Source of the DNA: a virus
DNA: 40,208 nt
IMG/VR virus record: IMGVR_UViG_3300043427_001483
Location: 1-40,208 of that record
Direction: 5' to 3' (one strand)
Part shown: one piece after another, positions 10,066-35,456 of the stretch
Numbering within the stretch: the stretch's first letter is position 1
Layout of the letters: the number at the start of each line of letters is the position of its first letter
Notes under the pieces: model-generated
Told to the model about the DNA's origin: nothing
Seen by the model: only the letters and a program-made list of their open reading frames with translations
Database searches by the model: none
Translations under genes and position numbers: made by a program

Positions 10066-10069
10066 CGCC

Positions 10070-16845: not shown

Positions 16846-19800
16846 CGCAGCTGATCGGTGGTGGCGGCTTTGGCGGTGGCGGCAAGGGTGGCGGCGGTGG
16901 CGCTAGGACACCAAGGGAAGCGAGCGATAACTTGGAGTCAACAAGCTATGCCATCGTTGTTGACCTGCTAGGTGAAGGCGAGATCGAAGGCTTCTCGACG
17001 CCATCACGCGCCGGCCTGAATCAGGGTACAAGCGCTGCCGCTTTTGCGATTCTCAAGGACATTTACTTTGACAATACGCCAATCCTGAGCCCAAACGCGA
17101 GCAACAGTTCGCCGTCAAGCTCGGACTTTAACTTCAAGAATGTTCAGGTTGCGCCGCGCTTTGGAACCAAGAATCAGGTACGTCTACAGTTCGGCGACGA
17201 AGTCCTGCAAGAGTTTGGCGTTGGCTTGACGATTGAGAAGGATACGCCGATCACGCGCACGATCACCGACACCAATGTTGATCAGGTGCGGATTGCCCTT
17301 ACGGTTCCGCAGCTGCAGGAGATTGAGAACGATGGAGACATTGCCGGTTCGGAAGTTGAGTACCGAATTGAGGTGCAGTACAACGGCGGCGGGTTCAACA
17401 CTGCCATTACCGACAAGATCAAAGGCCGGACATCCGATCAGTATCAGCGCGATCACAGGATCGATCTCCGCAGCCAGGATCCGAGCAACTTCCCAGTTGA
17501 CATCCGTTTACGCAGGCTGAGCAATGACAGCGACAGTGCAAAGCTGTCAAACAGCCTGATCTGGACAAGCTACACCGAAATCATCCAGGCGCGGCTGAAC
17601 TATCCGCATTCGGCACTGGTGGGCCTACGGATTGATGCGCAACAGTTCAGCAGCATTCCGCAGCGCACATACCGGGTGCGTGGAATCAAAGTCAAGATCC
17701 CAAGCAATGCCACTGTTGATAACAACAACGGCAGGCTGACCTATTCCGGCACATGGAATGGCACGTTTGGCGCTGCAAAGTGGACAACGGACCCAGCGTG
17801 GATCCTGTACGACCTGCTCACGAATACCCGCTACGGATTCGGCACGCATGTTGATGCCACCCAGCTGGATAAGTGGGCTTTCTATTCTGCGTCGCAATAC
17901 TGCAGCGAGCTGGTTTCCGACGGCTTTGGTGGCACGGAGCCGCGCTTTACCTGCAACGTCAACATTCAATCAGCAGAGGAAGCCTACAAGCTCGTCAATG
18001 ATCTCTGCTCGGTCATGCGAGCGATGCCATTTTGGAGCGCTGGCTCGCTGACGATCTCGCAGGATAAGCCGGTTGATCCTGCCTATCTGTTCACGCTTGC
18101 CAACGTCACAGAAGAAGGCTTCTCCTATTCCGGAAGTGACGTCAAGACCAGGCCTAATGTCGTCGTCGTTCAATACCTGGATCTTGACGCTCGCGAGACG
18201 GATTACGTTCAGGCTGAAGACGAAAAGGCGATCGACCGCTACGGCATCATCCGCAAGGAAGTTACAGCCTTCGCCTGCACCAGCCGCGGCCAGGCAGCAC
18301 GGCTTGCCGACTGGCTGATCTACAGCAGCCAGTACGAAACCGAGGTGATCAGCTTCACGGCGTCCATTGAGGCTGGCGTGGTGGTCAGGCCTGGTCAGGT
18401 GATCGACGTCGCCGATCCGGTGCGCTCTGGCTCCCGCCGTGGTGGTCGCATCGTGGCCGCTACGTCCAGCGTGCTCACGATCGACAACGCAGCCGGCCTA
18501 CCTGGCAGCGGGACGGTCTCGGTGATCATGCCGGATGGCACGATTCAATCCAAGAGCTGCACGCGCTCGGGCGTCACCCTGACACTGGCGTCTGCACTGA
18601 GCGAAGCGCCAACAGTCGGCAGCATCTGGGTCCTGAACGGCGGCGGCATCGTCACGTCACAATGGCGCGTGCTGACGGTGCGTGAAACTGAAGCCTGCAA
18701 GTATGAGATCACAGCGCTGTCGTACAACAGCAGCAAATATGCGTACGTTGAGCGCAATCGGCCGCTGACGCAACGTGACGTCACGAACCTGAATCAGCTG
18801 CCGGCAGCACCCACCAACCTGGTCCTATCTGAGCGGCTGTATACATTCCAGAATCAGGTGCGCGCCAAGGTGCTGATCAACTGGCGGCCAAGGGTTGGTG
18901 TCAATCGCTATTCAGTCCGCTGGCGCAAGAATTCCGGCAACTGGGCTACCACCATCACCCAGAGCCCTGATCATGAGATTCTCAACATCACGCCGGGAAC
19001 GTTTGATGTTGAAGTGTTCAGCCTTGATCCGCTGAACCGACCATCCACCAGTGCGCTCACCGGCAGCATCACTGCGCTCGGCAAGACAGCGCCGCCCAGT
19101 GATGTGACGGGTCTGACGCGCACGATTGATGAGGTGATCGGCGTCCTGCTTGATTGGTCGCCGGTGAGCGACCTAGACCTGAGAGATTATGAGATCCGCC
19201 GTGGCGGCACCGACTGGGATAGCGCGGCCTTCGTCGCCAGGGTCAACGGCACCAGCTACAAGGTCGGGATCCTGGAAGCTGGATCCGTGGTCTATCGCGT
19301 CAAGGCGCGTGATACCAGCAATGTCCTGAGTGTCAACGCTGCATCAGTCACTGTCACTGTTGTGGCGGCAGCGGCGCCGAATGTCACCCATTCGATTGAT
19401 GATCCAGTGGTGGCGATCAGCTGGTCTACATCGAAGGGATCGTATGCGGCGGCTTACTACGAATTACGGTATGGCGCTAATTATGAGACGGGTGTAACTG
19501 TCGCCAAGATCAATGGCAACGACTACAACCTGCCCATCACCTGGTCAGGTTCGCGCACATTCTGGGTTGCAGCGGTGGATCCGGTCGGCACCGTCGGCGC
19601 CGCTGGCTCCCGGGTCATCACGATTCAGCCCGCGCCGGCGCCCACTGTGACGGCTGCGTTCTACGGGCGGAGCTGCACGCTGACATGGAATGCCGTACAA
19701 GGCACGCTGCGGACCCGGTTCTATGAGATCAGCCACGGCGACGTCTACGCCGACCGAGAAGTGATCACCAGGATCAGCAGCGATGGCACCGGTTACAGCG

Positions 19801-21380
19801 TGCCGGCGGATTGGTCGGGCTCGAAGCGGTTCTGGGTCGTCGCCCTCGATGGCAACGGCAACTTCGGCACTGCCGGCAGCGTGATCGCTGCGATCGGTGC
19901 AGCACCTGCGCCGGTGCTGTCGTCTGCGTTCGTGGGCCAGAACGCGCAGATCACTTGGACACCGGTACGCGGCACGCTGGAGACGATCTTCTACGAAGTG
20001 CGGCGCGGCAGCACCTGGGCGACCGCGGCACTGGTGGGTCGGATCAATGCCACGTACGTGGACGTCAAGGCCAGCTGGATCGGCGCACAGCGCTTCCTTG
20101 TGCGTGCCGTGGATGCCAATGGCCAGTATCCCGATGCTGCTATTGCCGACTCCTGGTATGGCGCCATCGGCACGGTTGATGTGGTGATCTCGGCGCCATC
20201 GCAGCCGGTGATCACGCAGCAGGTGGTCGATAACAACGTGCTGCTGCGCTGGAATGACTGCACAGCGACGCTGCCGGTTGTGTCCTATGAGCTCCGGCGT
20301 GGCAGCACATGGGAGACCGCCACGGTCATCGGCACAAAGCAAGGCGGGTTCACGTCGGTGTTTGAAACCCAGGCCGGAACCTATACCTATTGGCTGGCAG
20401 GCATTGATAGCGCGGGCAACTATGGCACACCTGGCAGCGTGGTTGCATCAGTCAACCAGCCGCCTGACTATGTGCTCAGGTTGAATCAAGCCAGCACATT
20501 CTCCGGCACGCTGACCAATATGGTCGTCGATGGTGGTGTTGCTGTTGCGGCTGTCAATACCACCGAGACGTACGAACAGCACTTCACATCACGGGGTTGG
20601 ACCACAATTCAGAATCAGATCGATGCAGGCTTCACCCGCTGGATTCTGCCTGGTCAAACGAGCGCAACCTACGAAGAAACGATCGATTACGGCGCTGTGG
20701 TGGCCGGCAGCAAGGTTCAGCAATCACTGGCCACCGACACGGTTACCGGCTCACTGACGATCACGCCACGCATCAGCATCAAGCTGAATGTTGGCGACGC
20801 ATGGACCGACTACAACGGCGTGGATTCGATCTATGCCACGAACTTCCGCTACATCAAGTTCCGCTATGACTTCGCCGGCAGCGGCGGTGATGACTTGGTG
20901 CGGTTGACAAGTCTGAATTATCGGCTGGATTCCAAGCTCCGAAATGACTTCGGGAAGGGCACGGCTAAAGCCACGCTGGCCGGCACCTACAGCCGCACCG
21001 GCACCACGATCACCGTGACCGCTACTGCGCACGGAATGAGCAACGGCGATCTGATCGACCTGGACTTCACCAGTGGCGCTGCCGTTGATGGCGTCTATAC
21101 GGTCGCTGGCGCTACGGCCAACACATTCACGGTCACCAGCGCCGCAAGCGGCACCACCAGCGGGAATGTCACTCTGCATGGTGGCGGCACGGTGGTGACA
21201 TTCAACATTGCCTTTGTTGATGTCGAGGCGATTACTGTCACCCCTAGCGGTAGCACGGCCATAGTGGGTATCTATAATTTTGTGGACGAACCCAATCCAA
21301 CCACGTTTAAGGTGCTGCTTTTTGACACCAGCGGCAACCGCGTCGGCGGAGCCTTTAGCTGGAGCGCCAGAGGAGTCTGA
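16842..21380 (+). CDS. Central tail tip / host specificity protein gpJ-like
   Basis: A 1512-residue protein forming the tail tip and contacting the receptor. The N-terminus is a Gly-rich tract (residues 5-21), then SYAIVVDLLGEGEIEGFSTP, the family signature. Residues about 150-640 are the tail-hub core (DPAWILYDLLTNTRYGFGTH, GVVVRPGQVIDVADP). Residues about 650-1205 hold tandem fibronectin-III-like modules. Residues 1205-1512 carry receptor-side beta domains, with TYSRTGTTITVTATAHGMSN and a closing DTSGNRVGGAFSWSARGV. It overlaps I and the next fibre gene by 4 and 1 bases. Host range should map to the C-terminal third. Confidence 0.93.
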   Translation: MTQLIGGGGFGGGGKGGGGGARTPREASDNLESTSYAIVVDLLGEGEIEGFSTPSRAGLNQGTSAAAFAILKDIYFDNTPILSPNASNSSPSSSDFNFKNVQVAPRFGTKNQVRLQFGDEVLQEFGVGLTIEKDTPITRTITDTNVDQVRIALTVPQLQEIENDGDIAGSEVEYRIEVQYNGGGFNTAITDKIKGRTSDQYQRDHRIDLRSQDPSNFPVDIRLRRLSNDSDSAKLSNSLIWTSYTEIIQARLNYPHSALVGLRIDAQQFSSIPQRTYRVRGIKVKIPSNATVDNNNGRLTYSGTWNGTFGAAKWTTDPAWILYDLLTNTRYGFGTHVDATQLDKWAFYSASQYCSELVSDGFGGTEPRFTCNVNIQSAEEAYKLVNDLCSVMRAMPFWSAGSLTISQDKPVDPAYLFTLANVTEEGFSYSGSDVKTRPNVVVVQYLDLDARETDYVQAEDEKAIDRYGIIRKEVTAFACTSRGQAARLADWLIYSSQYETEVISFTASIEAGVVVRPGQVIDVADPVRSGSRRGGRIVAATSSVLTIDNAAGLPGSGTVSVIMPDGTIQSKSCTRSGVTLTLASALSEAPTVGSIWVLNGGGIVTSQWRVLTVRETEACKYEITALSYNSSKYAYVERNRPLTQRDVTNLNQLPAAPTNLVLSERLYTFQNQVRAKVLINWRPRVGVNRYSVRWRKNSGNWATTITQSPDHEILNITPGTFDVEVFSLDPLNRPSTSALTGSITALGKTAPPSDVTGLTRTIDEVIGVLLDWSPVSDLDLRDYEIRRGGTDWDSAAFVARVNGTSYKVGILEAGSVVYRVKARDTSNVLSVNAASVTVTVVAAAAPNVTHSIDDPVVAISWSTSKGSYAAAYYELRYGANYETGVTVAKINGNDYNLPITWSGSRTFWVAAVDPVGTVGAAGSRVITIQPAPAPTVTAAFYGRSCTLTWNAVQGTLRTRFYEISHGDVYADREVITRISSDGTGYSVPADWSGSKRFWVVALDGNGNFGTAGSVIAAIGAAPAPVLSSAFVGQNAQITWTPVRGTLETIFYEVRRGSTWATAALVGRINATYVDVKASWIGAQRFLVRAVDANGQYPDAAIADSWYGAIGTVDVVISAPSQPVITQQVVDNNVLLRWNDCTATLPVVSYELRRGSTWETATVIGTKQGGFTSVFETQAGTYTYWLAGIDSAGNYGTPGSVVASVNQPPDYVLRLNQASTFSGTLTNMVVDGGVAVAAVNTTETYEQHFTSRGWTTIQNQIDAGFTRWILPGQTSATYEETIDYGAVVAGSKVQQSLATDTVTGSLTITPRISIKLNVGDAWTDYNGVDSIYATNFRYIKFRYDFAGSGGDDLVRLTSLNYRLDSKLRNDFGKGTAKATLAGTYSRTGTTITVTATAHGMSNGDLIDLDFTSGAAVDGVYTVAGATANTFTVTSAASGTTSGNVTLHGGGTVVTFNIAFVDVEAITVTPSGSTAIVGIYNFVDEPNPTTFKVLLFDTSGNRVGGAFSWSARGV
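19084..20460 (+). repeat. Tandem fibronectin-III-like modules in gpJ
   Basis: Five successive modules of roughly 85-95 codons. Each has a YE(L/I)R.G motif (YEIRRGG, YELRYGA, YEISHGD, YEVRRGS, YELRRGS), a later aromatic strand (SRTFWVAAVD, SKRFWVVALD, AQRFLVRAVD, TYTYWLAGID) and an inter-module Ala/Pro linker (PAPAPTV, APAPVLS). The second to fifth modules are most alike, pointing to duplication within the gene. Confidence 0.85.
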
Positions 21381-22537
21381 TGGCCAACTGGAACAGCCCA
21401 ACGCTAACCAGCAGCTACACCGGGTTTCTGAATGACCTGAAGGCCAGAGACGAGGATCTGGCGAAACAGTTTGACGGGCAGACCACCAGCAACCTGCCAA
21501 CTGATGCCATCCGTTGGTCAAGCAGTCTGGGTCGCTGGCAGAAATGGAACGGCAGCGCATGGGTTGAGCTGATCGCCACCTATGCGCTGACGGGCCTGAG
21601 CACCACCGGCAATGCTGCGATCGGCGGCACGCTGACGGTCACAGGCGTGAGCCAGACAGCAGCCGGTACAGCTGCGGCACCTGGCCTGGGCATTGGTGAA
21701 GCGGGCAGCGGCTGGTTCCGCGTCAGCGCCAACATTCTCGGCTTGGCTACTGGTGGCGTCGAGGCGCTGCGGGTTGACAGCCAGGGCCGGATTGGATCCA
21801 GGACAACCAGCCTGGGCAGTGCCAATGGTGCGTATCGGTTCGCGGCAGCACCGACCGGCAACGCATCTTCCAACGGCCTGGTCTATGCGCCGTCGATCGC
21901 GACGGACGTTACCGGGACGTGCAATGCGGTCATGGCCCAGCCGTCCACGACAGACGGCATCACAGGCCTGTCCAACCTGCGGCACTTCGCCGCCATCGAA
22001 GGCACGATCACCGGCGGCACGCGTGGTGCTGTCGCCACGCAGATCGGCTTCCTGGCTAGTAGCGGTCTAATCAGCGCAACCAACAACTACGGCTTCTATG
22101 GTGACATCCCGGCGGCGGCGGGAGACTACAACTTCTACGCCGGCGGGACGGCGCCAAACTATTTTGCGGGTGACGTAAGAACTGAGACCACATTTACCAG
22201 CCGCACCGTCGCTGTCAACTCCAACACAACTGGAGCTGTCGCTAGCACCACCAGTCTTCTCAATGGCATCCGCACATCTACGCCAACAGCAGACATCACG
22301 CTCCTAGTGCCAACTGGCACCGACATGGATGCTGCTTTCACTTCACTGGAGAGCAATCAAGGCTTTGAGTGGAGCCTGATCAATCTGGCCACCGCCGCAT
22401 CTGGGAATGATGTGACCGTCACCGCAAACACAGGCCACACTGTTGTGGGCAACATGCGAGTGACCGGCGAGACATCAGGCCGGTTCAAGACTCGCAAGAT
22501 CAGTAGCAACTCATTCACGACCTACCGCATCGCTTGA
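21380..22537 (+). CDS. Tail fibre protein
   Basis: A 385-residue fibre. N-terminal residues 1-70 form an attachment domain ending in a KWNGSAW motif (SLGRWQKWNGSAWVEL). Residues 70-280 are repeating short strands typical of trimeric beta fibres (TGNAAIGGTLTVTGVSQTAA, GVEALRVDSQGRIGSRTT, NYGFYGDIPAAAGDYNFYAG). The C-terminal 90 residues (NQGFEWSLINLATAASGNDV, FKTRKISSNSFTTYRIA) form a compact end domain. It begins at the last base of the J gene, so it probably attaches to the J tip. Confidence 0.85.
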   Translation: MANWNSPTLTSSYTGFLNDLKARDEDLAKQFDGQTTSNLPTDAIRWSSSLGRWQKWNGSAWVELIATYALTGLSTTGNAAIGGTLTVTGVSQTAAGTAAAPGLGIGEAGSGWFRVSANILGLATGGVEALRVDSQGRIGSRTTSLGSANGAYRFAAAPTGNASSNGLVYAPSIATDVTGTCNAVMAQPSTTDGITGLSNLRHFAAIEGTITGGTRGAVATQIGFLASSGLISATNNYGFYGDIPAAAGDYNFYAGGTAPNYFAGDVRTETTFTSRTVAVNSNTTGAVASTTSLLNGIRTSTPTADITLLVPTGTDMDAAFTSLESNQGFEWSLINLATAASGNDVTVTANTGHTVVGNMRVTGETSGRFKTRKISSNSFTTYRIA

Positions 22538-22539
22538 CC

Positions 22540-22680
22540 ATGGACGAAGAACCGAGGTACTCCGGCCTGTTGGAAACCATCTTCCCAGATGGCACCATCG
22601 CATACGACGGGCAGGTTGGCCCACCAGAGAACTTCCCGCTCACCGAAGCAGAGCTGGCTGAGGTTCAGCACAATTCCTAG
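22540..22680 (+). CDS. Small acidic protein downstream of tail fibre
   Basis: A 46-residue frame from ATG 22540 (two bases after the fibre stop) to TAG. The product is acidic: MDEEPRYSGLLETIFPDGTI, then LTEAELAEVQ. No transmembrane segment or motif. The tight position between the fibre and holin-like genes supports translation; a fibre accessory role is a guess. Confidence 0.6.
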   Translation: MDEEPRYSGLLETIFPDGTIAYDGQVGPPENFPLTEAELAEVQHNS

Positions 22681-22683
22681 GTT

Positions 22684-22950
22684 GTGACAAGGGGCCGCAA
22701 TGCCGCAATGATTGAAATCGCTGCTGCAGCGGTCGGCGCTGCCTTCACTGCTGTCGTTATGGCAGTATCTGGCGCCGGTCGGCGTGCATCAGAAGGTCGT
22801 GATGCTGTGATCCGTCTCACTGCAGCGGTTGAGAATGTTGCCAATCGATTAGAGGAGCTTCATGTTGACATTAAGGCTGACCGACGCGAAACGTACGGGC
22901 GGTTGAATGCAATCGAACAGCGCGTCGCCAAGCTGGAAGCCAATTCATAG
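22684..22950 (+). CDS. Holin-like membrane protein with coiled coil (possible dual start)
   Basis: An 88-residue protein with one hydrophobic span (IEIAAAAVGAAFTAVVMAVS) followed by a basic linker and a heptad-type helix (RLTAAVENVANRLEELHVDI, then LNAIEQRVAKLEA). This is the layout of XhlA-like lysis proteins. Two in-frame starts are possible: GTG 22684 and ATG 22708. The longer form adds an N-terminus with two arginines (MTRGRNAA) before the span, similar in principle to lambda-type antiholin/holin pairs. It lies upstream of the lysis peptidase. Confidence 0.65.
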   Translation: MTRGRNAAMIEIAAAAVGAAFTAVVMAVSGAGRRASEGRDAVIRLTAAVENVANRLEELHVDIKADRRETYGRLNAIEQRVAKLEANS

Positions 22951-22974
22951 CCTGAAGTTGTCAGAAGCGAGCCA

Positions 22975-23166
22975 ATGGACTTCCTTAAAGATCCCGCTTT
23001 CTGGTGGGCAGTCTTCGCCTCAGTATGGGCTGTGCTCAGCGACTACCTGGGATCCAATCCCAATGTGAAGTCCAATGGCGTGAGCCAGTTGGTGATTCGG
23101 ATGATCTCGTCTGCCGTTCGTGGCGAGGCGCAGTCCGCTGGTCGTGTCCGTCGTCGTCGTCGCTGA
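22975..23166 (+). CDS. Small membrane protein, holin candidate
   Basis: A 63-residue protein with an N-terminal amphipathic/hydrophobic span (FWWAVFASVWAVLSDYLG) and a strongly basic end (RVRRRRR). Single-span, short and basic-tailed, it fits a holin or holin partner next to the preceding coiled-coil membrane protein. The lysis peptidase GTG follows its stop by two bases, suggesting translational coupling. Confidence 0.65.
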   Translation: MDFLKDPAFWWAVFASVWAVLSDYLGSNPNVKSNGVSQLVIRMISSAVRGEAQSAGRVRRRRR

Positions 23167-23168
23167 AC

Positions 23169-23876
23169 GTGCCTGACCCTATCCAGCTGCTCAGCGCAGC
23201 CAGAGCGCACAAGGACTTGAGCCACCAGATCGCTGCCTGGCGATGGCTGCAAGGCAGCGTCAGCTCAGATGTGCTGGCGGAGTTCGCTGAGCTCTTCCGC
23301 GCTGATCCGCCGGCGAAGGAACCGAGCCCCAGCCCCGGCCAGCCGGACAAGGCTCTGTTGAAGGTGCCCTACGAGTACCAGCTAGACAACAGCAGCGGCG
23401 CCGGCCAGCGCGAGTGTTTCAGTTCCAGCTGCGCCATGGTGGCTCGCTTCTACGGGCGCGTGTCAAGTGACGACGAATACAACGCCATCAGGGCCAGGTT
23501 CGGCGACACCACCAACAGCGGCGCACAGCTGCGGGCGCTCGGCAGCCTGGGCCTGCAGGCCACCTTCCACCAGAACGGCGACGCGGCGACCTTGGAACGG
23601 CTGATCCGTGACGGCTGCCCGGTGCCGGTGGGCTGGCTGCACCGTGGCAGCATCTCCCACCCAACCGGCGGCGGCCATTGGTCAGTGGTGATCGGGTTTG
23701 ACGATCAGGGCTTCTATCACAACGACCCGAACGGCGAGGCCGACATGGTGGGCGGCGGCTACGTCAGCAACAGCAACCGGGCCGGTGCGGGAGTGCGCTA
23801 CAGCCGCAGGAACTGGCTCCGGCGCTGGGAGGTAGACGGCAAGGGCACCGGCTGGTATCTGCGCATCAAGCCCTGA
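23169..23876 (+). CDS. C39-family peptidase, probable endolysin
   Basis: About 235 residues. Start placed at GTG 23169, two bases after the previous stop; the frame is open further upstream but there overlaps the preceding gene with unconvincing sequence. Residues 1-60 form a helical N-terminus (LSAARAHKDLSHQIAAWRWL) and a Pro-rich linker. The rest is a papain-fold C39_2-type domain: Cys in RECFSSSCAMVARFYGR, His in GGGHWSVVIGFDDQG and a following HNDPNGEA. It should cut peptide cross-links in the cell wall at lysis. No signal peptide is seen, so it needs the holin. Confidence 0.82.
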   Translation: MPDPIQLLSAARAHKDLSHQIAAWRWLQGSVSSDVLAEFAELFRADPPAKEPSPSPGQPDKALLKVPYEYQLDNSSGAGQRECFSSSCAMVARFYGRVSSDDEYNAIRARFGDTTNSGAQLRALGSLGLQATFHQNGDAATLERLIRDGCPVPVGWLHRGSISHPTGGGHWSVVIGFDDQGFYHNDPNGEADMVGGGYVSNSNRAGAGVRYSRRNWLRRWEVDGKGTGWYLRIKP

Positions 23877-24926: not shown

Positions 24927-25238
24927 ATGGGTTCCGGTGATTGGTTCATCCCTGAACTCAGTCTGGCGACCCAATGCAGCCAGGAAATAGACCGGCGACG
25001 CGCTGTCACGCTCGGTCATCAGGAACTGCAAGAGCTGGCGGATCGGCTGATCGTTGACTGGTATCTCCAGCGCAACCTGATAGACCGCTGCCTAGGTCGC
25101 GTGCGCCACCTGGAGGTAGAGCTCGCACTGGCCAATGCGGCACCGTTCAGCCGATCCGCTGCCTGCCACTACGAATGGGCGCGCGAGGTGCTCGACGGCG
25201 TGAAGGGTTCAGCACCCGGCGCGGAAGCGGCAGGCTGA
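24927..25238 (+). CDS. Small helical protein, unknown
   Basis: A 103-residue rightward protein, isolated between leftward genes. The central part is helical: HQELQELADRLIVDWYLQRN, then LGRVRHLEVELALANAAP. I have seen this compact pattern in other cyanobacterial phage proteins of unknown role. Its 3' end overlaps the end of the convergent sigma gene by 92 bases, so one of the two C-termini is probably dispensable. Starts 13 bases from the divergent small gene. Confidence 0.6.
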   Translation: MGSGDWFIPELSLATQCSQEIDRRRAVTLGHQELQELADRLIVDWYLQRNLIDRCLGRVRHLEVELALANAAPFSRSAACHYEWAREVLDGVKGSAPGAEAAG

Positions 25239-26196
25239 GCTGTGGCGGTGGCTCGCGGCGCTGCCTACGGCGTTGGGTGGGTGCTGTTGCTCCGCCTACC
25301 TGGTCGTGGCCGCTAGGGCATGCGATGGCCTGCAGCTGCAGACCTAGCTGCACCACCGACGGATCCATCGTGCCGCGCAGGCTGCGCAAGGCCTGCTCGA
25401 GTAGCTGCTGTGCCGCGCTGCGCGTGATCCGCTGCTCACGGGCGAACTCCTTCATGGTGGCGACGCCGCGGCCGATGCCGTAGGCAGCCTCCAGGACCAG
25501 CCGGCTGCGTTCCGGCAGGCGCTGGATCTGCCGCTGCAGCCGCTCGACGTCCTCCGGCAGCGGTGGTGGTGCTGGCGACGGCAGCACCTGGCCCAGCGTG
25601 GTGAGCCCATCTTCTGTGCCGACCGGGCAGTCCAGCGACGCGCACTGCCGGCCCACGGTCGCGATCCGATCCAGCTCCATCACGCTCATACCCAGCGCCT
25701 GCGCCAGGTCTTCCCGGGTGGGCTCACGGCCGAGGTGCACGAACAGCTTGCGCAGCGTCCTGGGGATGGCGCCCACCTTCGGGCTGATGGTGGTGGGCAG
25801 CCGGATCGTTCGCTCCGAGCGCTCCAGGTGGCAGGTGACGCGCATCTGCACCCAGTACGTGGCGTAGGTGCTGAACCGGTAGCCGCGGCTGGGATCGAAC
25901 CGCTCGACCGCTTCGATCAAGCCGTGGTTGCCCGCCTGGATCAGGTCGTCGAACGCTTCGCCCGGGACCATGCGCCTGAACCGTTTGGCCACCGTCACCA
26001 CCAGCCGCAGGTTGGCGCGAACGAATCGCTCACGGGCCCGCAGGCCGCGGCGACGCACGTCAGGCGGGCAGCCGTCCGGCCCATCGGGATGGGCGCGCCA
26101 CTCCTGCACCTGCCGCCCGTAGGTCAGCTCTTGGGCTGGTGTTAGCAGCGGATAGCGGCCGATCTGCTCCAGCCACCAACTGGGTCCGGAGTGCAT
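25147..26196 (-). CDS. Phage-borne sigma-70 family RNA polymerase sigma factor
   Basis: About 349 residues from ATG 26196 (TTG 26220 and GTG 26217 are alternatives; no clear ribosome site). It has region 1.2 (YPLLTPAQELTYGRQVQ), 2.1-2.2 (RANLRLVVTVAKRF, DDLIQAGNHGLIEAVERFDP), 2.3-2.4 (YRFSTYATYWVQMRVT), 3 and 4 (LPERSRLVLEAAYGIGRGVA). Compared with E. coli sigma-70, promoter-contact residues differ: Q437 is Met118, H455 is Thr136, E458 is Pro139, E585 is Ser260 and R588 is Gln263, while T440 is kept. A basic Pro/Arg-rich tail of about 70 residues follows region 4. It probably redirects host polymerase to phage or stress promoters. Confidence 0.9.
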   Translation of the reverse strand: MHSGPSWWLEQIGRYPLLTPAQELTYGRQVQEWRAHPDGPDGCPPDVRRRGLRARERFVRANLRLVVTVAKRFRRMVPGEAFDDLIQAGNHGLIEAVERFDPSRGYRFSTYATYWVQMRVTCHLERSERTIRLPTTISPKVGAIPRTLRKLFVHLGREPTREDLAQALGMSVMELDRIATVGRQCASLDCPVGTEDGLTTLGQVLPSPAPPPLPEDVERLQRQIQRLPERSRLVLEAAYGIGRGVATMKEFAREQRITRSAAQQLLEQALRSLRGTMDPSVVQLGLQLQAIACPSGHDQVGGATAPTQRRRQRREPPPQLSLPLPRRVLNPSRRRAPRAPIRSGRQRIG

Positions 26197-26471: not shown

Positions 26472-27491
26472 ATGGCATCCATCAGCGTCCAAGCCGGCCG
26501 CCTGTACCTGGTGGCCCGGGTGCCGCGGCGTGACGGCCAGCCGGGCCTGAAGCAGACGCGAATCGCCCTGCGGATGGATGACACACCGACCAATCGCCGA
26601 GCCGCGGCCAAGCAGTTGCAGACCCTGGAGCGGCAGCTCAAGACTGGGACGTTTGAGTGGCCCTACTGGACTGGGCAGGAACACTCCGGTGTGACGTGGC
26701 GCGACGCAATCGCCAAGCTGTACCGCGCTCGGGTGGTGCTGGGCAGAACCAGTGAGTCCACCTGGGAGATTAACTACATGGGCAGGCTGCGCCAGCTGCC
26801 ACCAGGCGGTCAGGTGACGGCAGAGAGCATCGCGACCGCGCTGCAGAAGTACGACCGGGGCAGCTGCTCCTACAAAGAGCTGTTCTACCTGCTGCGCCAT
26901 CTGGCCAAGCTGGTGGCGGTGCCGTTCCCTGAGGTGCCGCAGCCGACTTACCGGGACGCCGCGCCGCTGGTGGTGCCGACCGATGACGAGATCATCGCCT
27001 GGGTTGAAGGATCAGGGCCGGGAGCCTGGTACTTCGGCATGATGGCGACCTACGGGCTGCGGCCCCATGAGATCGAGTCTGCCGAGCTGATTGACCGCGA
27101 CTACTGCCAGGTGCAGGACGCCACGAAAACCGGCTTCCGCACGGTGGTGCCGTTGCCGCGCGAGTGGGTGGAGCTGTTCCGGCTGCATGATCGACGGCTG
27201 CGGCCGACGCTGCCCGGTGCCGCTACCGATCGATCCGAAGTGGTGGCGAAGTGGTTATGGCGCCAGTGCCGCGGGCTTCCGTGGCGACCCTATGCGCTGC
27301 GCCATGCGTACGCCGGCAGGCTATGGCGTGAAGGCGGTTCCCGGCTGGACATCTATACCGCCGCGCGGCTCATGGGGCATAGCCCGACGCAGCACGCAAA
27401 GACCTACCGGGCGCACATTCAGCCGCACCTGGTGGCGGAAGCGGCGGAGCGGGCGTTGCTGGGAGATGCGGCACCACCGCTGCCAGGTTGA
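26472..27491 (+). CDS. Tyrosine site-specific integrase
   Basis: A 339-residue recombinase that would insert the phage into the host chromosome. An N-terminal arm/core-binding region (residues 1-165) is followed by the catalytic domain: Arg197 (YGLRPHEIES), Lys219 (DATKTGFR), Tyr274-x-x-Arg277-His278 (YALRHAYAG), His303 (LMGHSPTQH) and nucleophile Tyr312 (AKTYRAH). Tyr in place of the first His of HxxR is usual in integrases of this cyanobacterial type as I recall. All other catalytic residues are present. Its 3' end overlaps a leftward helix-turn-helix gene by 122 bases. No attP core could be identified. Confidence 0.92.
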   Translation: MASISVQAGRLYLVARVPRRDGQPGLKQTRIALRMDDTPTNRRAAAKQLQTLERQLKTGTFEWPYWTGQEHSGVTWRDAIAKLYRARVVLGRTSESTWEINYMGRLRQLPPGGQVTAESIATALQKYDRGSCSYKELFYLLRHLAKLVAVPFPEVPQPTYRDAAPLVVPTDDEIIAWVEGSGPGAWYFGMMATYGLRPHEIESAELIDRDYCQVQDATKTGFRTVVPLPREWVELFRLHDRRLRPTLPGAATDRSEVVAKWLWRQCRGLPWRPYALRHAYAGRLWREGGSRLDIYTAARLMGHSPTQHAKTYRAHIQPHLVAEAAERALLGDAAPPLPG

Positions 27492-27663
27492 CCCGTACCG
27501 TCCGCCGGCTGGCCCCGACCGGTGCCAGGTCAATCAGCTCCCTGCCCCAGCGCCAGCGGCTCTTGCGGTTGGCATCGGCCTCGGCCACCAGCCGCTCGAT
27601 GTGGCGCTTGCTCACGCCGAGAGCTTCGGCCGCTTCGGCAAGGGTGAGAAGGACGCGTGCCAT
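27370..27663 (-). CDS. Helix-turn-helix DNA-binding protein, Xis-like candidate
   Basis: About 97 residues from ATG 27663, which overlaps the upstream stop (TGATG) and has a GGGGGA sequence nine bases before it. Residues 1-32 form a winged/MerR-type helix-turn-helix (LLTLAEAAEALGVSKRHIER); a strand WRWGRELIDL and TVRVNLAAVVP follow. Size, fold and convergent overlap with the integrase fit an excisionase or recombination directionality factor. The C-terminal 30 residues read antisense to the integrase end and may be unimportant. It is the last gene of the leftward operon. Confidence 0.7.
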   Translation of the reverse strand: MARVLLTLAEAAEALGVSKRHIERLVAEADANRKSRWRWGRELIDLAPVGASRRTVRVNLAAVVPHLPATPAPPLPPPGAAECAPGRSLRAASGYAP

Positions 27664-27845
27664 CACCACGCATCCCCCGGCCGTGCCGGATGGGGTGAGC
27701 AGAGATAGACGCTGCCCCACCAGCCGCCGGGGATCCAGTAAGCCGGCGACATGCGGTAGAGCCGGCGGTGGCGGGTGTCGCTGTTGACCCAGCAGAAGCG
27801 GCCGATCCGGCCGGCGTTGCTGTCGATGTGGATGAAGTCAGCCAT
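27663..27845 (-). CDS. Small aromatic-rich protein, unknown
   Basis: A 60-residue protein (ATG 27845) with a beta-rich, Trp/Tyr-rich sequence: FIHIDSNAGRIGRFCWVNSD, then LYRMSPAYWIPGGWWGSVYL. No known family. It overlaps the gene upstream by 8 bases and the helix-turn-helix gene downstream by one. Confidence 0.65.
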   Translation of the reverse strand: MADFIHIDSNAGRIGRFCWVNSDTRHRRLYRMSPAYWIPGGWWGSVYLCSPHPARPGDAW

Positions 27846-28041
27846 CGGAGCCCTCCAGTTCGGCGGCGATGTCCAGCACGTCCTGCGTGACGCCGTCTGC
27901 ACCGTTGATTCGTTTCGCCAGCTCGCGAAGCGCAGCAGCTAGGCACAGCTCCTGCCAGTTGCCATCGAACGGGCCGCACAGTTCGTGGCGATCGGTGAAG
28001 GCATCCAGCACCGCCTGAGACGCGGGGGAGAGGTCAGCCAT
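27838..28041 (-). CDS. Small helical phage protein, unknown
   Basis: A 67-residue protein from ATG 28041. It begins MADLSPASQAVLDAFTDR and contains LCLAAALRELAKRIN and VTQDVLDIAAELEG. This arrangement (short helix, then AALRELA) recurs in cyanobacterial phage genomes as I recall, without known role. Overlaps its neighbours by 8 bases on each side. Confidence 0.72.
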   Translation of the reverse strand: MADLSPASQAVLDAFTDRHELCGPFDGNWQELCLAAALRELAKRINGADGVTQDVLDIAAELEGSDG

Positions 28042-28615
28042 GGCGCTGCAGCTCCTGGCGCAGGATGCTGGCGGTGGCGCCGTAGCCGATGGCGTCGAAC
28101 CATTCGGCAACGGCCAGGATCGCGGCGCGTGCCTCTGGCGCCCAGTTGGATGGCGTGTCGCCACAGTCGGCGATGGAGCAGATGGCTGCGCCGACCGACT
28201 GCATCAGGTCACCAGCTGCCGAACTCCTAATTTGGCTTGGATTAGGAGTTGGCTGGGAGTCGTCATCCCACTCGGTCAGCGGATCACCTACGGCTGCATC
28301 GCACCTGTTGACCAGATTCTGCAATTCTTTGCGGGCTTCCTTGGAAAACTGGCAAGACGCCTCGTACTCCACCAACCATCCAGTCGATTCGATGAGAAGC
28401 CGCTTCAGGTCTGGGCCATCCAATGCCCGCTCGGCGTCTTCGTCCTGCTGGCGGACGTTTTCGGCGTATTCCAACTCTCTGATCCGCTGCTCGGCGGCGG
28501 AGATGCGGTCGCGAAGTTCGGCGACGCAAGAGCTGATAAAAAAGAACTCATGGTCGGCTGCTCTGTCTTCCAGCTGTGCCCATTGCTTTGGCGTTGCCTT
28601 GTGTGGTGTGGTCAT
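28034..28615 (-). CDS. Conserved phage protein with coiled coil, unknown
   Basis: A 193-residue protein from ATG 28615. The N-terminus MTTPHKATPKQWAQLEDRAA leads into a coiled coil (CVAELRDRISAAEQRIRELE). Mid-region acidic linker (DPLTEWDDDSQPTPNPSQ). The C-terminus is helical (WAPEARAAILAVAEWFDAIG, then YGATASILRQEL). The N- and C-terminal motifs are ones I associate with small cyanobacterial phage proteins, here joined in one gene. Its start overlaps the dCTP deaminase stop by four bases. Confidence 0.72.
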   Translation of the reverse strand: MTTPHKATPKQWAQLEDRAADHEFFFISSCVAELRDRISAAEQRIRELEYAENVRQQDEDAERALDGPDLKRLLIESTGWLVEYEASCQFSKEARKELQNLVNRCDAAVGDPLTEWDDDSQPTPNPSQIRSSAAGDLMQSVGAAICSIADCGDTPSNWAPEARAAILAVAEWFDAIGYGATASILRQELQRHG

Positions 28616-29124
28616 CCCCTTGACTCCATGACTGTGGTGTCGCCTTGGTACCGGCCCGTGACGGCATAGGAGCGCTCTGGTGGTGCCAGCATCTGGCTAA
28701 AGACAAGCTGTCCGATGCGCATACCCGGCCAAATCGGGACGGCGTGCAGCTGGCGGCTGTTGTGCAGCTCCAAAGTGATCACACCGTGGAACCCTGGATC
28801 TAGATAGCCGGCCAGAAGATGCTCGATTCCTTCGCGGGCCCGAGATGACTTGAGCACGAACTGAGCATTGCAGGTGTCAGGCACTCGCACAAACTCCAGC
28901 GTTGGAGCTAGCACGAACTGACCTGGAACCATCAAGTAAGGATCACCCTCGCTGTGGAGGTGGAATGGATAGCTGGCCATCTTGCGGCTCTCAGCCGATT
29001 CGATCAGCAGCTGACTGCCGAGCCGTACATCCAGGCTGGCGGGGTTGACGAGTGACGGGTCAAAGGGCGTCACCATGCCTGCGGTGCAGAGCTGGTGGAT
29101 TTCGTGGTCGGGAAGGATGGCCAT
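28612..29124 (-). CDS. dcd: dCTP deaminase (dUTPase superfamily)
   Basis: A 170-residue enzyme converting dCTP to dUTP and ammonia, feeding thymidine nucleotide synthesis for phage DNA. Family signs: MAILPDHEI start, LVNPASLDVRLGSQLLIE, FVLAPTLEFVRVP, active-site KSSRAREGIEHLLAGYLDPG and FHGVITLELHN, then PIWPGMRIGQLVFSQM. The SSRAREG segment holds the Arg and Glu expected in the catalytic site of deaminases, not plain dUTPases. A bifunctional deaminase-dUTPase cannot be excluded. Confidence 0.9.
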   Translation of the reverse strand: MAILPDHEIHQLCTAGMVTPFDPSLVNPASLDVRLGSQLLIESAESRKMASYPFHLHSEGDPYLMVPGQFVLAPTLEFVRVPDTCNAQFVLKSSRAREGIEHLLAGYLDPGFHGVITLELHNSRQLHAVPIWPGMRIGQLVFSQMLAPPERSYAVTGRYQGDTTVMESRG

Positions 29125-29145
29125 TAGATGTTCTCTCTACAGGAG

Positions 29146-29412
29146 CTAGCCATAGGGCTTGTCGTCGCTGAGATCATCAGCATCGACTGTCTCGATGTCT
29201 TTCCACTCCCCGCCGCGCTGGAACAAGCCTTGCGTCCAAGTGAAATAGCCCTGGAGCTTGAGATGGATTGCCCCCTCCTCGGTGCGGTAGCGGACGAGCC
29301 GGTAGGCATCGGGCACGGTCTTCTCAACTCGCGCAGCACCGATCTGCATGGTCGGATGATCCGAGCCAACAGTCAGGTAGGCAAATTGTTGTTGCTGTTC
29401 GTCCTTGTCCAT
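29146..29412 (-). CDS. Small protein upstream of dCTP deaminase, unknown
   Basis: An 88-residue protein from ATG 29412 whose start shares a base with the previous stop. Beta-strand-rich middle (AYRLVRYRTEEGAIHLKLQG, then YFTWTQGLFQRGGEW) and an acidic C-terminus (DIETVDADDLSDD). No motif for a known enzyme. Membership of the operon supports translation. Confidence 0.68.
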   Translation of the reverse strand: MDKDEQQQQFAYLTVGSDHPTMQIGAARVEKTVPDAYRLVRYRTEEGAIHLKLQGYFTWTQGLFQRGGEWKDIETVDADDLSDDKPYG

Positions 29413-29795
29413 TAGTGTGTTCCTCCTGTGGATTCAGGGGCGGCGTTACCGGTTGCGTTGCACCGCTGACAGTCTCGATAACGAGTGCCCTCAGCCTTGC
29501 TCCATCCGGCCCAAACCTGTCCGGTTCCCTTGCAGTCCCAGCACTTGCCGGTGTCCGATTCGTAAGCGGTGGCTCTGGCTTGCATCTCTTGCCTAGTGAC
29601 AACCACCTTGCGACCGGGACCGGTGAACTTTTGCTTGCCCTTGCGCGGGCCTGAGCGGTAGATGCCGCTAGGTACGTCACCAGTGACAAGGGAGTCGTCG
29701 CCGCAAGCCTCCCATGTGTACGCAACCCAGCCGTCAATGCCAACCTTTGACTCGGCGAAGGTCATTACGTCTTCGATGCTGAACTTGTTTGGCAT
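29412..29795 (-). CDS. Zinc-binding protein with DnaJ-type cysteine repeats
   Basis: A 127-residue protein from ATG 29795. The C-terminal third holds two CxxC units, CWDCKGTGQVW and CQRCNATGNA, the CxxCxGxG pattern of DnaJ zinc fingers. The N-terminal part contains KFSIEDVMTFAESKVGIDGW and a basic loop (SGPRKGKQKFTGPGRKVVVT). It likely binds RNA, DNA or an unfolded partner through the zinc knuckle. No J domain is present. Confidence 0.75.
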   Translation of the reverse strand: MPNKFSIEDVMTFAESKVGIDGWVAYTWEACGDDSLVTGDVPSGIYRSGPRKGKQKFTGPGRKVVVTRQEMQARATAYESDTGKCWDCKGTGQVWAGWSKAEGTRYRDCQRCNATGNAAPESTGGTH

Positions 29796-29798
29796 CTT

Positions 29799-30032
29799 CT
29801 AGTCTCCTTCACTTGTGGATTGGTCTTCGTCTCCCCAGTCGAGAAACACGGCATAGGCGCATGATTCAGCATCTGCGCTGATCTGGCCGGCGGTGCCGCA
29901 CTCGGGGTCAATGCAGCGCACCTTGTCGCCATCACAGGCCCAGCCGTCTTCGGGCTCATCGCTGAACACCTGAAGCGGACCGCCGCACTCAGGGCATTCT
30001 TCCGGCCAGTCCTTCCATCCGTAATCGGCCAT
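29799..30032 (-). CDS. Zinc-ribbon protein
   Basis: A 77-residue acidic protein with CPECGG near the N-terminus and WACDGDKVRCIDPEC further on, a four- or five-cysteine zinc ribbon, and a fifth or sixth Cys in ESCAYAV. Starts at ATG 30032 and ends 3 bases before the next gene. Function unknown; a DNA mimic or adaptor is possible given the acidity. Confidence 0.72.
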   Translation of the reverse strand: MADYGWKDWPEECPECGGPLQVFSDEPEDGWACDGDKVRCIDPECGTAGQISADAESCAYAVFLDWGDEDQSTSEGD

Positions 30033-30035
30033 CCC

Positions 30036-30344
30036 TTAGTCCTCCTGACTGATGACTACCGGGGTAGCCGGCTCCACCCCCAGCGCTTCGGCTTCCGGCC
30101 AGCGATAGCCCAGCAGCAGTTGAGCGCTGGCGACTTCCCGCCAGTAGCGGCGGCGGGCAGATTGCGCGGCACACGCCAGGCCAAATGCAATGCGCTGACT
30201 GGCGGTGGCGTCATCGAACTTGGCGGGTGGATCACCAGCCAAGGCATCAGCCTGTCGCTCCAGCTCCGCCGCCTCAGCTCCGGCCAGATGGGCGCGGGCG
30301 GTGGCGGAGTGGCAGAGGGCGACGCGGAGTGTGTGGTCAATCAT
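30036..30344 (-). CDS. Helical protein, unknown
   Basis: A 102-residue, Ala-rich helical protein from ATG 30344 (MIDHTLRVALCHSATARAHL, EAAELERQADALAGDPP, RIAFGLACAAQSARRRYWRE). No recognised domain. It overlaps the small membrane peptide gene by 8 bases. Confidence 0.65.
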   Translation of the reverse strand: MIDHTLRVALCHSATARAHLAGAEAAELERQADALAGDPPAKFDDATASQRIAFGLACAAQSARRRYWREVASAQLLLGYRWPEAEALGVEPATPVVISQED

Positions 30345-30450
30345 TGGGGCGCCTCTTGATCAGAGCGAAGAACAGATCCATGCACGCCAGGCCGATCAAA
30401 GCTGGGATCAGCGCAAGCGCGAGCTGTTGCCAGGTGGTGGTGTCAGTCAT
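30337..30450 (-). CDS. 37-residue membrane peptide
   Basis: Starts at ATG 30450. One hydrophobic span (LALALIPALIGLACMDLFFA) with a basic tail (LIKRRPND). It overlaps the upstream gene by 8 bases and the downstream gene by 8, the usual coupling in this operon. Confidence 0.65.
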   Translation of the reverse strand: MTDTTTWQQLALALIPALIGLACMDLFFALIKRRPND

Positions 30451-30778
30451 CGGGTAATTGCTCCAAGGCGCGGCGGATGGCGTTGTAAGTGTTCTGCTTG
30501 TCGCCGTGATCCGGATTGCCATAGACGTAGGCATCCAGTGCGTCGCACGCCTGCTGCTTCAGGCTCGGTGGCTTGGGGCGGCGGGCGGCGCGGAGCTGGG
30601 CGCTTGTCCACGTCCAGTCCTGCTTGCTGATCCACTCCACGCACGCCTCCAGTTCAGCGTCTGCGCCTGCCTGAAAAGCCTGGATCAGTAGAACGTCGGC
30701 ATTTTCCCGCTCACTGAACCAGTCGCTTTCCCATTTAGCTAGCTGCTCATCTGTCGGCTGCATCGGGTGCTCAGTCAT
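30443..30778 (-). CDS. Conserved small phage protein, unknown
   Basis: A 111-residue protein from ATG 30778. N-terminal PTDEQLAKWESDWF and AFQAGADAELEACVEWISKQ; C-terminal LRAARRPKPPSLKQQACDAL and NAIRRALEQL. The LRAARRPKPPSLK block is one I recall from many cyanobacterial phage genomes. All-helical, no catalytic motif. Start overlaps the previous stop (ATGA). Confidence 0.78.
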   Translation of the reverse strand: MTEHPMQPTDEQLAKWESDWFSERENADVLLIQAFQAGADAELEACVEWISKQDWTWTSAQLRAARRPKPPSLKQQACDALDAYVYGNPDHGDKQNTYNAIRRALEQLPDD

Positions 30779-31050
30779 CGCCCCACCTCCTCGTCGTAGA
30801 CCTTGCAGATGAAGCGGCCACCCGTGGCAAACCCGCGAGCAGGGGCGCCGCTGAGAGCAGCGTTCGCGTGCTCACAGAGCGGCAGCAAGCGTTCAGCAAT
30901 CTCGCCGAGACCGTAGAAGTCGATCCCGAACTCATTGATGCACTCTTGCTCCAGCGCGTCGGTTTCTTCGTCTGTCTCCGGCTCGGGTTTGCCGATCATT
31001 GCCGCGAACAGCTCGGGCACCTCGAAATCGTGAACGATTGCTCCAGTCAA
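30775..31050 (-). CDS. Acidic protein with TTG start, unknown
   Basis: A 91-residue protein. The start is taken as TTG 31050 because GGAGG lies seven bases upstream and the TTGA overlaps the preceding stop; a longer frame exists but reads across the preceding gene. The sequence is acidic and helical (IVHDFEVPELFAAMIGKPEP, ETDEETDALEQECINEFGID, then AERLLPLCEHANAAL). No family recognised. Confidence 0.7.
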   Translation of the reverse strand: MTGAIVHDFEVPELFAAMIGKPEPETDEETDALEQECINEFGIDFYGLGEIAERLLPLCEHANAALSGAPARGFATGGRFICKVYDEEVGR

Positions 31051-31205
31051 CGCCCCACCTCCCGCTGCTGCTGCTGGCCCTGCACACGCTCCAGCAGGAA
31101 CCTGCCCCAGCCGACGTGCGTGGCCAGGGCGTGCTGGCCTGGTGGGGTTGGGTAGGACTGCTTCCACCACTCACGGAATAAAGCTTCAATCTCATGGTCG
31201 GGCAT
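31047..31205 (-). CDS. Small conserved phage protein (FxxWW type)
   Basis: A 52-residue protein from ATG 31205 with a strong AGGAGG site five bases upstream. Sequence begins MPDHEIEALFREWWKQSYPT and continues GQHALATHVGWGRFLLERVQ, ending in a Gln-rich tail. This short pattern (WW..SYP...THVGW..FLL) recurs in cyanobacterial phages as I recall. Overlaps by 14 bases upstream and 4 downstream. Confidence 0.78.
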   Translation of the reverse strand: MPDHEIEALFREWWKQSYPTPPGQHALATHVGWGRFLLERVQGQQQQREVGR

Positions 31206-31527
31206 TGAACCTCCTCAGTTCAGGTAGGACGCGGGCATGCAACTGCCCGTACTGGACTTTCTCGATGGTGCTGATCGCTCGGCCGTGGCGTTCAGCCAGC
31301 ACCTGGCGCGGCTCGCCGCTGGTCAGGATGTCGGCGATTGCGTCATCGGATAGGCGATTCACGCCAGCACAGAAGCCGCGGTGCTCGATCGGTCCTGGGT
31401 CATCGCTCCAGATGGTCCAGGCGAAACTGCAGCTGTCGCAGCGGTAACGACGGCGCCGGCCGCCAGCTTTGAGAGTCCGGCTTTCGATGACCCTTCCGCC
31501 ACCGCTGCAGTTGGGGCATGGGGTCAT
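31192..31527 (-). CDS. Zinc ribbon plus helix-turn-helix regulator
   Basis: A 111-residue protein from ATG 31527. N-terminal zinc ribbon: CPNCSGG and RYRCDSCSFAW, similar in look to NrdR-type ribbons. The C-terminal half is a helix-turn-helix-like region (AIADILTSGEPRQVLAERHG, RAISTIEKVQYGQL). This combination suggests a DNA-binding regulator. It overlaps both neighbours. Confidence 0.8.
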   Translation of the reverse strand: MTPCPNCSGGGRVIESRTLKAGGRRRRYRCDSCSFAWTIWSDDPGPIEHRGFCAGVNRLSDDAIADILTSGEPRQVLAERHGRAISTIEKVQYGQLHARVLPELRRFNARP

Positions 31528-31754
31528 AGGGGACGTACTGCCACCGCAACTGTGCGGGCGTAGGGATGCCTGGCCCGGGCGAACTGCTCGGCCTGGCCGG
31601 CGCTGATGGCGCGGATGGTGGTCTTCATCGGCCGGCTGCCGGTGGCGAAGGTGACGGTCACCGGCCAGAGCACGGCCTTCGGGTCACTGGTGCGGGTGAT
31701 GCCTTCGCCGACGTGGGTCGGCTCATCGGTGATGGCCTGATACCTGGTGCTCAT
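31524..31754 (-). CDS. Small beta-rich protein, unknown
   Basis: A 76-residue protein from ATG 31754. The middle is beta-strand-like (KAVLWPVTVTFATGSRPMKT, TIRAISAGQAEQFARARH), ending in ARTVAVAVRPL. It overlaps by four bases on each side. No function recognised. Confidence 0.7.
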   Translation of the reverse strand: MSTRYQAITDEPTHVGEGITRTSDPKAVLWPVTVTFATGSRPMKTTIRAISAGQAEQFARARHPYARTVAVAVRPL

Positions 31755-31837
31755 TGCAGTCGCTCCAGCTGCTGGATCTGCTGCCGCTCGGCGTGCAGGG
31801 CGTGGGCGGCCATGAAGCAGGCCAGCACCACAAACAC
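31751..31837 (-). CDS. Short membrane peptide, start uncertain
   Basis: The frame ends at 31751 (TGA overlapping the next ATG). The last part encodes a hydrophobic segment (LAITVFVVLACFMAAHAL) then a Gln/Leu helix (ERQQIQQLERLQ). GTG 31837 with GGGA upstream is one possible start; the frame stays open further upstream inside the preceding gene, so a longer product in an overlapping frame is also possible. Confidence 0.45.
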   Translation of the reverse strand: MFVVLACFMAAHALHAERQQIQQLERLQ

Positions 31838-31854
31838 CGTGATGGCCAGATTCC

Positions 31855-31983
31855 CTAGGGCTCGGCCACGGGCAGCGGCGGCCTTGGCAACAGCTGCAGC
31901 GCGACGACTGGCGGCACGATCACACGCCTGATCAGGGCTCCAGCGGTGAGCAGTGCCAGCCCGGTGATAGCAATGTGCATCAT
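31855..31983 (-). CDS. 42-residue membrane peptide
   Basis: Starts at ATG 31983, overlapping the preceding stop (ATGA). Encodes MMHIAITGLALLTAGALIRR, a single hydrophobic span, followed by a Pro/Val-rich tail. Much of it overlaps another frame that leads into a second membrane segment, a layout seen in nested small membrane genes. Confidence 0.6.
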   Translation of the reverse strand: MMHIAITGLALLTAGALIRRVIVPPVVALQLLPRPPLPVAEP

Positions 31984-32144
31984 TGGGCTTCTTCGACACG
32001 AACGACGGCAGCTGTGGGGAATTGACGCTCGAACGACGCGCGAGCACGATCGCGGTCGTAGCTGGAGTCGCAGACCCATTCGGTTTCGTAGGTGATGTCA
32101 CGGGATTGATGGGTTGAGGTGTACGTGATCAGGAAGACAGGCAT
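31980..32144 (-). CDS. Small protein MPVFLITY type
   Basis: A 54-residue protein from ATG 32144. Sequence MPVFLITYTSTHQSRDITYE, then VCDSSYDRDRARASFERQFP, ending AAVVRVEEAQ. A strand-helix-strand pattern that could be a small ferredoxin-like fold. Well conserved-looking and in operon register with its neighbours. Function unknown. Confidence 0.72.
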   Translation of the reverse strand: MPVFLITYTSTHQSRDITYETEWVCDSSYDRDRARASFERQFPTAAVVRVEEAQ

Positions 32145-32149
32145 GGCAT

Positions 32150-32512
32150 TTACACCAGCTCTTTGCCGGTACAGCTCGGCAGGCTCCAGCCGGTGGCATC
32201 CGGTGCCGACGCGGCGGCGGTGATGGTGTCGGCGATGCGGTGCAGCGCTTGGGCTAAGCCTTTGGCGCCATCAGCCGGGATCGGGAGCATGTCATCCCAG
32301 GCGTTGTCGGCGATGGCGTTTGCTACCGGCTCGCAAGCGCCGATGAGCATGTCCAGCAACGTGAGCAGCGGCGGGTTTTTCACCCCGCAGTTGTGCCAGC
32401 CGTAGCCCGGGGCATAGGCGTAGCCGTTGGCGATGCTGCGCTCCACCAGAGCGCGGGCGGCCTGCAGGATCTCGTCGGACAGGGCGCCTTCGGCGGCGAT
32501 GGTGGTGCTCAT
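32150..32512 (-). CDS. Helical protein, unknown
   Basis: A 120-residue protein. ATG 32512 chosen because GGAG lies six bases before it; an upstream in-frame start adds four residues. Helical segments LSDEILQAARALVERSIANG, LLTLLDMLIGACEPVANAIA and GLAQALHRIADTITAAA, with one Cys/His-bearing loop (GYGWHNCGVK). It overlaps the Gp157-like gene by four bases. Confidence 0.68.
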   Translation of the reverse strand: MSTTIAAEGALSDEILQAARALVERSIANGYAYAPGYGWHNCGVKNPPLLTLLDMLIGACEPVANAIADNAWDDMLPIPADGAKGLAQALHRIADTITAAASAPDATGWSLPSCTGKELV

Positions 32513-33057: not shown

Positions 33058-33100
33058 GGGCAGCGGTCAAATCTTGCGCTGCAGTCCTGCAGCACGACGC

Positions 33101-33119
33101 ACCATAGCGCATCAGTTGC
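33101..33119 (-). promoter_or_regulatory. Conserved ACCATAGCGC element upstream of gp157
   Basis: ACCATAGCGCATCAGTTGC on the plus strand matches ACCATAGCGCCATGCGTTGC at 35137-35156 with only a few changes. Read leftward it contains GCGCTATGGT, resembling a -10 region. It lies 44 bases before the Gp157-like start, in one of the few real gaps of the operon. Confidence 0.5.
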
Positions 33120-33147
33120 AAGGCTGCAGCGGATCTGCCGCACTGTT

Positions 33148-33544: not shown

Positions 33545-33560
33545 GACGTAGCGGGGTGGG

Positions 33561-35452: not shown

Positions 35453-35456
35453 CGGG

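Follow-up and report, generated by a model that had tools for sequence, protein, structure and literature searches.

Which promoters does a phage sigma-70 factor serve when most of the residues with which such factors read promoter bases have been exchanged? This question is raised by a gene at positions 25147-26196 (minus strand) of a 40,208-bp IMG/VR virus contig, which was analysed over its full length and is called the window here. The reading to which the evidence points, and which we regard as quite probable, is that the encoded protein is the late-gene sigma of an S-LBS1-type clade of cyanosiphoviruses and directs polymerase to a late motif without a -35 element.

A complete sigma-70 factor within phage modules

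The protein comprises 349 amino acids counted from the ATG, or 357 if an upstream TTG at 26220 is the start. It exceeds the Pfam cut-off for Sigma70 r1_2, r2, r3 and r4, and so has the domains of an RpoD-like sigma-70 factor from region 1.2 to region 4, as the preliminary description had proposed, and it matches PHROG 351. In the AlphaFold (AF2) model (mean pLDDT 81.7) the sigma domains are folded, and Foldseek matches of this model are sigma-A, sigma-S and HrdB chains, those of sigma-A and sigma-S coming from initiation complexes. Alignment with E. coli RpoD and cyanobacterial SigA revealed the changes W433Y, R436Q, Q437M and R441C in region 2.4 (residues 111-122, YATYWVQMRVTC; 25831..25866, minus strand), V454T, H455T and E458P in region 3.0 (residues 132-140, RLPTTISPK; 25777..25803, minus strand) and E585S, R586A, I587A and R588Q in the region 4.2 helix-turn-helix, which is also placed by the AF2 model (residues 255-270; 25387..25434, minus strand), while W434, T440, R451, R584 and Q589 are unchanged. 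All substitutions named at first inspection are present, and R436Q, R441C, V454T, R586A and I587A add to them. Among Q437, H455, E458, R584, E585 and R588, R584 alone is unchanged, which separates the protein from primary and group 2 cyanobacterial sigmas.

The gene lies inside phage modules, as first described, with portal, capsid, tape measure and tail genes to its left (late module, 69..22950, plus strand) and an integrase and the early module to its right. The late module ends in a C39-type peptidase (23004..23876, plus strand; Pfam) that occupies the lysin position by synteny with S-LBS1 and the S-CBS phages and is convergent with the sigma gene. The tyrosine integrase (26472..27491, plus strand; domain and PHROG matches) has relatives 68-74% identical on cyanobacterial contigs, and the phage is therefore probably temperate on the cyanobacterial family in question. 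The early module (27370..40155, minus strand) is annotated with an HTH protein, Gp157, dCTP deaminase-like and DUF4942/methylase-like genes, and a small protein at 36528-36911 (minus strand) has PHROG matches to dATP/dGTP pyrophosphohydrolase (MazG-like). The capsid protein is closest to those of S-CBS1, S-CBS3 and S-LBS1 (47-49%). Since no terminase was found within the 40,208 bp, the contig is probably incomplete. A 63-residue open reading frame adjoining the integrase (26223-26414, plus strand) has no Pfam match; its conserved part lies at about 26259-26310, and some 48 bp of it recur at roughly 80-92% identity in about one hundred genomes of cyanobacteria, in some of these twice.

Where does this sigma belong? 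In a tree of 52 sigma proteins it falls within the S-LBS1-type phage sigma clade (25 rows, support 100/95; a 19-row grouping of the S-LBS1 type has 97/87), set apart from the host sigmas, and the sigmas of S-CBS1, S-CBS3 and KBS2A form a separate group closer to host sigmas. As in the S-LBS1 relatives, the gene is located between the lysin gene and the early module on the strand opposite to the late genes, and proximity to the endolysin gene with the same opposite orientation is found in S-LBS1, S-CBS1, S-CBS3 and KBS2A alike. Single-protein scans of IMG/VR and of genome contigs found no close relative of the window sigma; close relatives were reached by a search with an alignment including S-LBS1. 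In the S-LBS1 clade region 3.0 is replaced, typically at G454, S455, H456, Q458 and H459, as are R584, E585, R588 and Q589 of region 4.2. In a survey of 251 genomes of the same cyanobacterial family, in which the best matches were inspected as loci, the best host loci keep most of the promoter-contact residues changed in this clade. A nearly identical sigma on a host chromosome, which would have counted against the original proposal, was not found in that family, the best genomic match being 45% identical. The notion that the altered contacts are confined to phage copies stands for the clade, as the changes are present there and absent from the host sigmas checked. It does not extend to Q437M and W433Y, which among about 80 phage relatives are combined in the window only, W433 and Q437 being nearly always unchanged and the relatives differing mainly in regions 3.0 and 4.2.

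The sole "host" row of the clade (L086, G001:C136) is a 5.6-kb contig of a Synechococcaceae MAG with an S-LBS1-type sigma (58% to S-LBS1) next to a lysin gene; most probably it is phage DNA that ended up in the MAG bin. Two tandem sigma genes occur in some of the related phages (L009, L010 and L011 in G401, G402 and G425; L084 in G420). In G401 and G402 the first has host-like -35 contacts (R584, E585, R588) and the second belongs with the divergent sigmas of the S-LBS1 type; these two could constitute a sigma cascade.

A candidate late promoter and its proposed reader

Motif discovery by repeated words in 19 phage genomes yielded TCCATAGCCTG. With one mismatch allowed, it matches 33 times in the 27,641 nt that lie within 50 nt upstream of late-strand starts of these genomes and 13 times in 699,136 nt of other late-strand DNA, and on the early strand it is missing from 15,974 nt of upstream DNA and matches 5 times in 710,803 nt of other DNA. 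From 24 independent sites with unlike flanks the consensus TCCATAGCCTGA.G..A was derived. Columns -5 (A) and +1 (A), which had not been selected for, are conserved over the 24 sites, and no column of the -35 region comes up to 0.35 bit. When TAGCCT is taken as -12 to -7, the conserved A falls on +1. In S-LBS1-type phages the motif stands 4-28 nt before start codons with a bimodal spacing of 4-6 nt (about a third of the sites) and 17-28 nt, and unlike capsid gene families carry the same motif. One copy in the N-terminus of the S-LBS1 capsid gene (4676), which also encodes His-Ser-Leu, was left out of the training set.

The motif matrix was built without the window, which was thus scored untrained. 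Only two strong sites are found there on either strand, and both directly precede late ATGs, with 0.033 sites of score 17 or above expected in random sequence of the same make-up. The best candidate promoter, TTCATAGCCTGaagttG (22944..22960, plus strand; score 19.6), lies 20 nt before the ATG at 22975 of a short membrane-protein-like frame of the lysis cassette. In the second best, TTCATAGCCTGccggcA (7719..7735, plus strand; score 17.4), the predicted +1 is the A of the ATG at 7735 of the tail terminator gene, so that its mRNA would be leaderless. With these two sites the window has TYCATAGCCTG before late genes like the rest of the clade. In 62 loci outside the training set 31 late-strand matches were found, each leading within 40 nt into an open frame, versus 2 on the strand of the sigma gene; these 31 represent 25 distinct sequences, and some of the loci are close kin of training genomes. 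Across IMG/VR the motif followed by an ATG was found in 50 stretches versus 6 for a reversed control. The majority of the 50 stand at the start of long late genes, above all those of capsid and head-joining proteins; the remainder, for the most part short frames on contigs of lower GC, look like chance.

Other repeated words were set aside as promoter candidates, namely GC-rich coding words, GGTTCCGGTTCTGC in G413 and GTAACGCCTGGC in G405. In G413 (L180-L182) GGTTCCGGTTCTGC is a perfect 14-bp repeat at 906, 4059, 8167, 9503 and 16561, one copy lying some 58 bp ahead of the sigma match, and is possibly an early promoter or operator. In G405 (L194) GTAACGCCTGGCGGA is repeated at 29339, 29988 and 30445, with GATGGGATGGGATG preceding two of the three copies.

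What reads the early genes? TATAAT-like hexamers are enriched before them (1.65 vs 0.40 per kb) and hardly before late genes (0.42 vs 0.31 per kb), a split to be expected if the host sigma reads early and the phage sigma late genes. In the right half of the window itself a TTGACA/TATAAT scan gave one site, below the shuffle mean. The phage-specific promoter set anticipated in the preliminary description thus has a candidate on late genes, alongside host-like hexamers on early ones. Can individual residues be matched to individual bases? A search for covariation between region 3.0 and bases -16 to -13 gave suggestive pairings, TTCA with VLHQQ and with the window sequence and TCCA with GSHQ, from a number of independent sites too small for a claim; at -12 of the motif nothing visibly corresponds to the window's Q437M and W433Y.

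That the motif belongs to this sigma is suggested by their joint occurrence. Every examined motif-bearing contig that spans the sigma position carries the sigma gene, and five motif-bearing contigs lacking it were discarded as counter-examples, being fragments in which the corresponding region is missing. Neither S-CBS1 nor S-CBS3, with sigmas that keep host-like contacts, has the motif, and it is also absent from a prophage (L165, G164:C45; 24688-25749 and neighbours) whose integrase is 74% identical, whose early module resembles that of S-LBS1 and which has no sigma gene between lysin and integrase; since its structural module differs as well, this prophage is an imperfect control. Could the motif instead act in the translation or RNA processing of late mRNAs, the sigma reading other promoters? 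Its constant vicinity to late start codons, at 4-6 nt for roughly one site in three, would fit such a role, but the bimodal spacing and the want of a Shine-Dalgarno core do not, the conserved T-12, A-11, T-7 and A+1 agree with a -10 element and start site, and phages without the divergent sigma lack the motif, so that we hold this improbable.

A similarly small likelihood is given to the motif being read by another phage regulator or an unusual host sigma, with the phage sigma merely boosting general transcription. The protein-DNA link is indirect, and three phages with a divergent sigma, G404 and G408 (GSHQH type) and G405, have no strong motif sites. Against this reading, a protein without -35 contacts matches DNA without a -35 element, and a host sigma regulon is unlikely because the motif, as a 14-mer pattern, occurs 12 times in 101 host genomes, which is about chance. 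Very unlikely, finally, is a host-derived gene of housekeeping-like specificity kept to adjust host metabolism; group 2 rpsD4 is the annotation given to the sigma genes of S-CBS1/3, and a group 2 sigma of P-SS2 was considered to read canonical promoters (PMC2784084), but the best match in the host family is 45% identical and the contact residues changed in this clade are intact at the host loci.

From sequence, then, we infer the late-gene sigma as reader of the motif, together with the temporal order and all functional steps that follow. The sigma would be expressed from the early strand and replace the host sigma on the cyanobacterial core polymerase, which would then be brought to an extended -10-like promoter without -35 element, T(C/T)CA-TAGCCT-GA.G..A. 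In the predicted promoter -12T, -11A and -7T are retained, TCCA at -16 to -13 takes the place of the usual TG extension and the start is a purine. Its position directly before late genes would often give rise to leaderless mRNAs, and the phage would thereby probably switch the host machinery to the making of virus particles.

The C-terminal tail

The basic Pro/Arg-rich tail of about 70 residues noticed at the outset proved to be 72 residues long (278-349; 25150..25365, minus strand) and Arg/Pro-rich, with 14 K/R and 11 P, and is mostly disordered by sequence and AF2 model (pLDDT below 50 for residues 296-335 and about 50 for the remainder). It is not solely basic, as it contains the clamp-binding-type peptide QLSLPL (residues 319-324; 25225..25242, minus strand). 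This candidate beta-sliding-clamp-binding motif is identical to the hexapeptide that E. coli Hda needs for beta clamp binding (PMC3836487) and that strengthens clamp binding when engineered into the DnaQ exonuclease (PMC4703070). QLxL-type peptides, usually toward the tail end, are found in the tails of 13 of 22 clusters (60% identity) of the clade, versus 1.7 expected by shuffling. In T4, C-terminal motifs of gp55 and gp33 bind the T4 clamp and activate late transcription (PMC2988020; PMC9690074). The recurrence of QLxL in the clade, the identity with the Hda hexapeptide and the T4 precedent make clamp coupling plausible: by analogy, the host beta clamp is the probable binding partner of the peptide, which may couple late transcription to replication, a weaker inference than promoter reading. 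The fuller proposal, that a full-length sigma-70 independently evolved T4-like late control in temperate cyanosiphoviruses, with a phage promoter lacking -35 and a tail tethering polymerase to the host clamp and thereby coupling late transcription to DNA replication, is put forward tentatively, as somewhat less probable than its opposite. If real, the clamp-binding peptide would suggest that replication-coupled late transcription, as known in T4-type phages, has arisen independently a second time.

Comparison with known systems

That the sigma strategy is undescribed in a temperate cyanosiphovirus, as first supposed, does not hold. Cyanosiphovirus sigma genes and the idea of host-polymerase redirection are already known (PMC2784084; PMC6157547; PMC3751600), and S-LBS1, S-CBS1/3 and KBS2A share gene and position. 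What is new here is the candidate target promoter of a cyanosiphovirus sigma; the sigma genes themselves are not. Cyanosiphovirus sigmas have been annotated since 2009, and none with a known target was found in the available parts of the literature searched, nor were the promoter sequence, its link to a sigma clade and the clamp-type tail found in this literature, which covers few subscription journals. With a concrete promoter, its position and candidate reading residues, the sigma-switch idea becomes testable by one RNA-seq or in vitro experiment with the S-LBS1 isolate, and the motif marks late transcription units on environmental cyanophage contigs.

Closest to the window are the S-LBS1 sigma (ATS93205.1; 42% identical) and its IMG/VR relatives, which share the location of the gene after the lysin and next to the early module, its convergence with the late genes, the late motif and, in S-LBS1, the QLxL tail peptide; in S-LBS1 W433 and Q437 are unchanged and region 3.0 contains PGSHCQH, whereas the window has YWVQM, PTTISPK and a longer tail. 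The rpsD4/rpoD sigma-70 genes of the cyanosiphoviruses S-CBS1, S-CBS3 and KBS2A occupy the same genome position, but their products keep R584, E585, R588 and Q589, have no basic tail and belong to another clade, and the late motif is absent from S-CBS1/3, which the scan covered (KBS2A lay outside it). P-SS2 is likewise an integrase-bearing cyanosiphovirus, and its two sigmas (ORF 113, ORF 003) are proposed to redirect host polymerase; in the available part of the report, and compared by description only, they differ in being proposed by annotation without a cognate phage promoter (PMC2784084).

Phage sigmas that read short phage-specific promoters are known as T4 and phiEco32 types (PMC2988020; PMC4331800). 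The sigmas of phages phiEco32 and 7-11 resemble the proposed system in their short, well-conserved phage-specific promoter elements (PMC4331800), but the promoter sequence is unrelated to the late motif and the sigma is distant. With the T4 system of gp55, gp33 and gp45 the proposed system would share late promoters consisting of a -10-like element only and a C-terminal clamp-binding peptide (PMC2988020; PMC9690074). However, gp55 is without sigma domain 4, forming a split sigma with gp33, and T4 has its own clamp, whereas the window sigma has regions 1.2-4, its region 4 being present in both Pfam and the AF2 model, and would use the clamp of its host.
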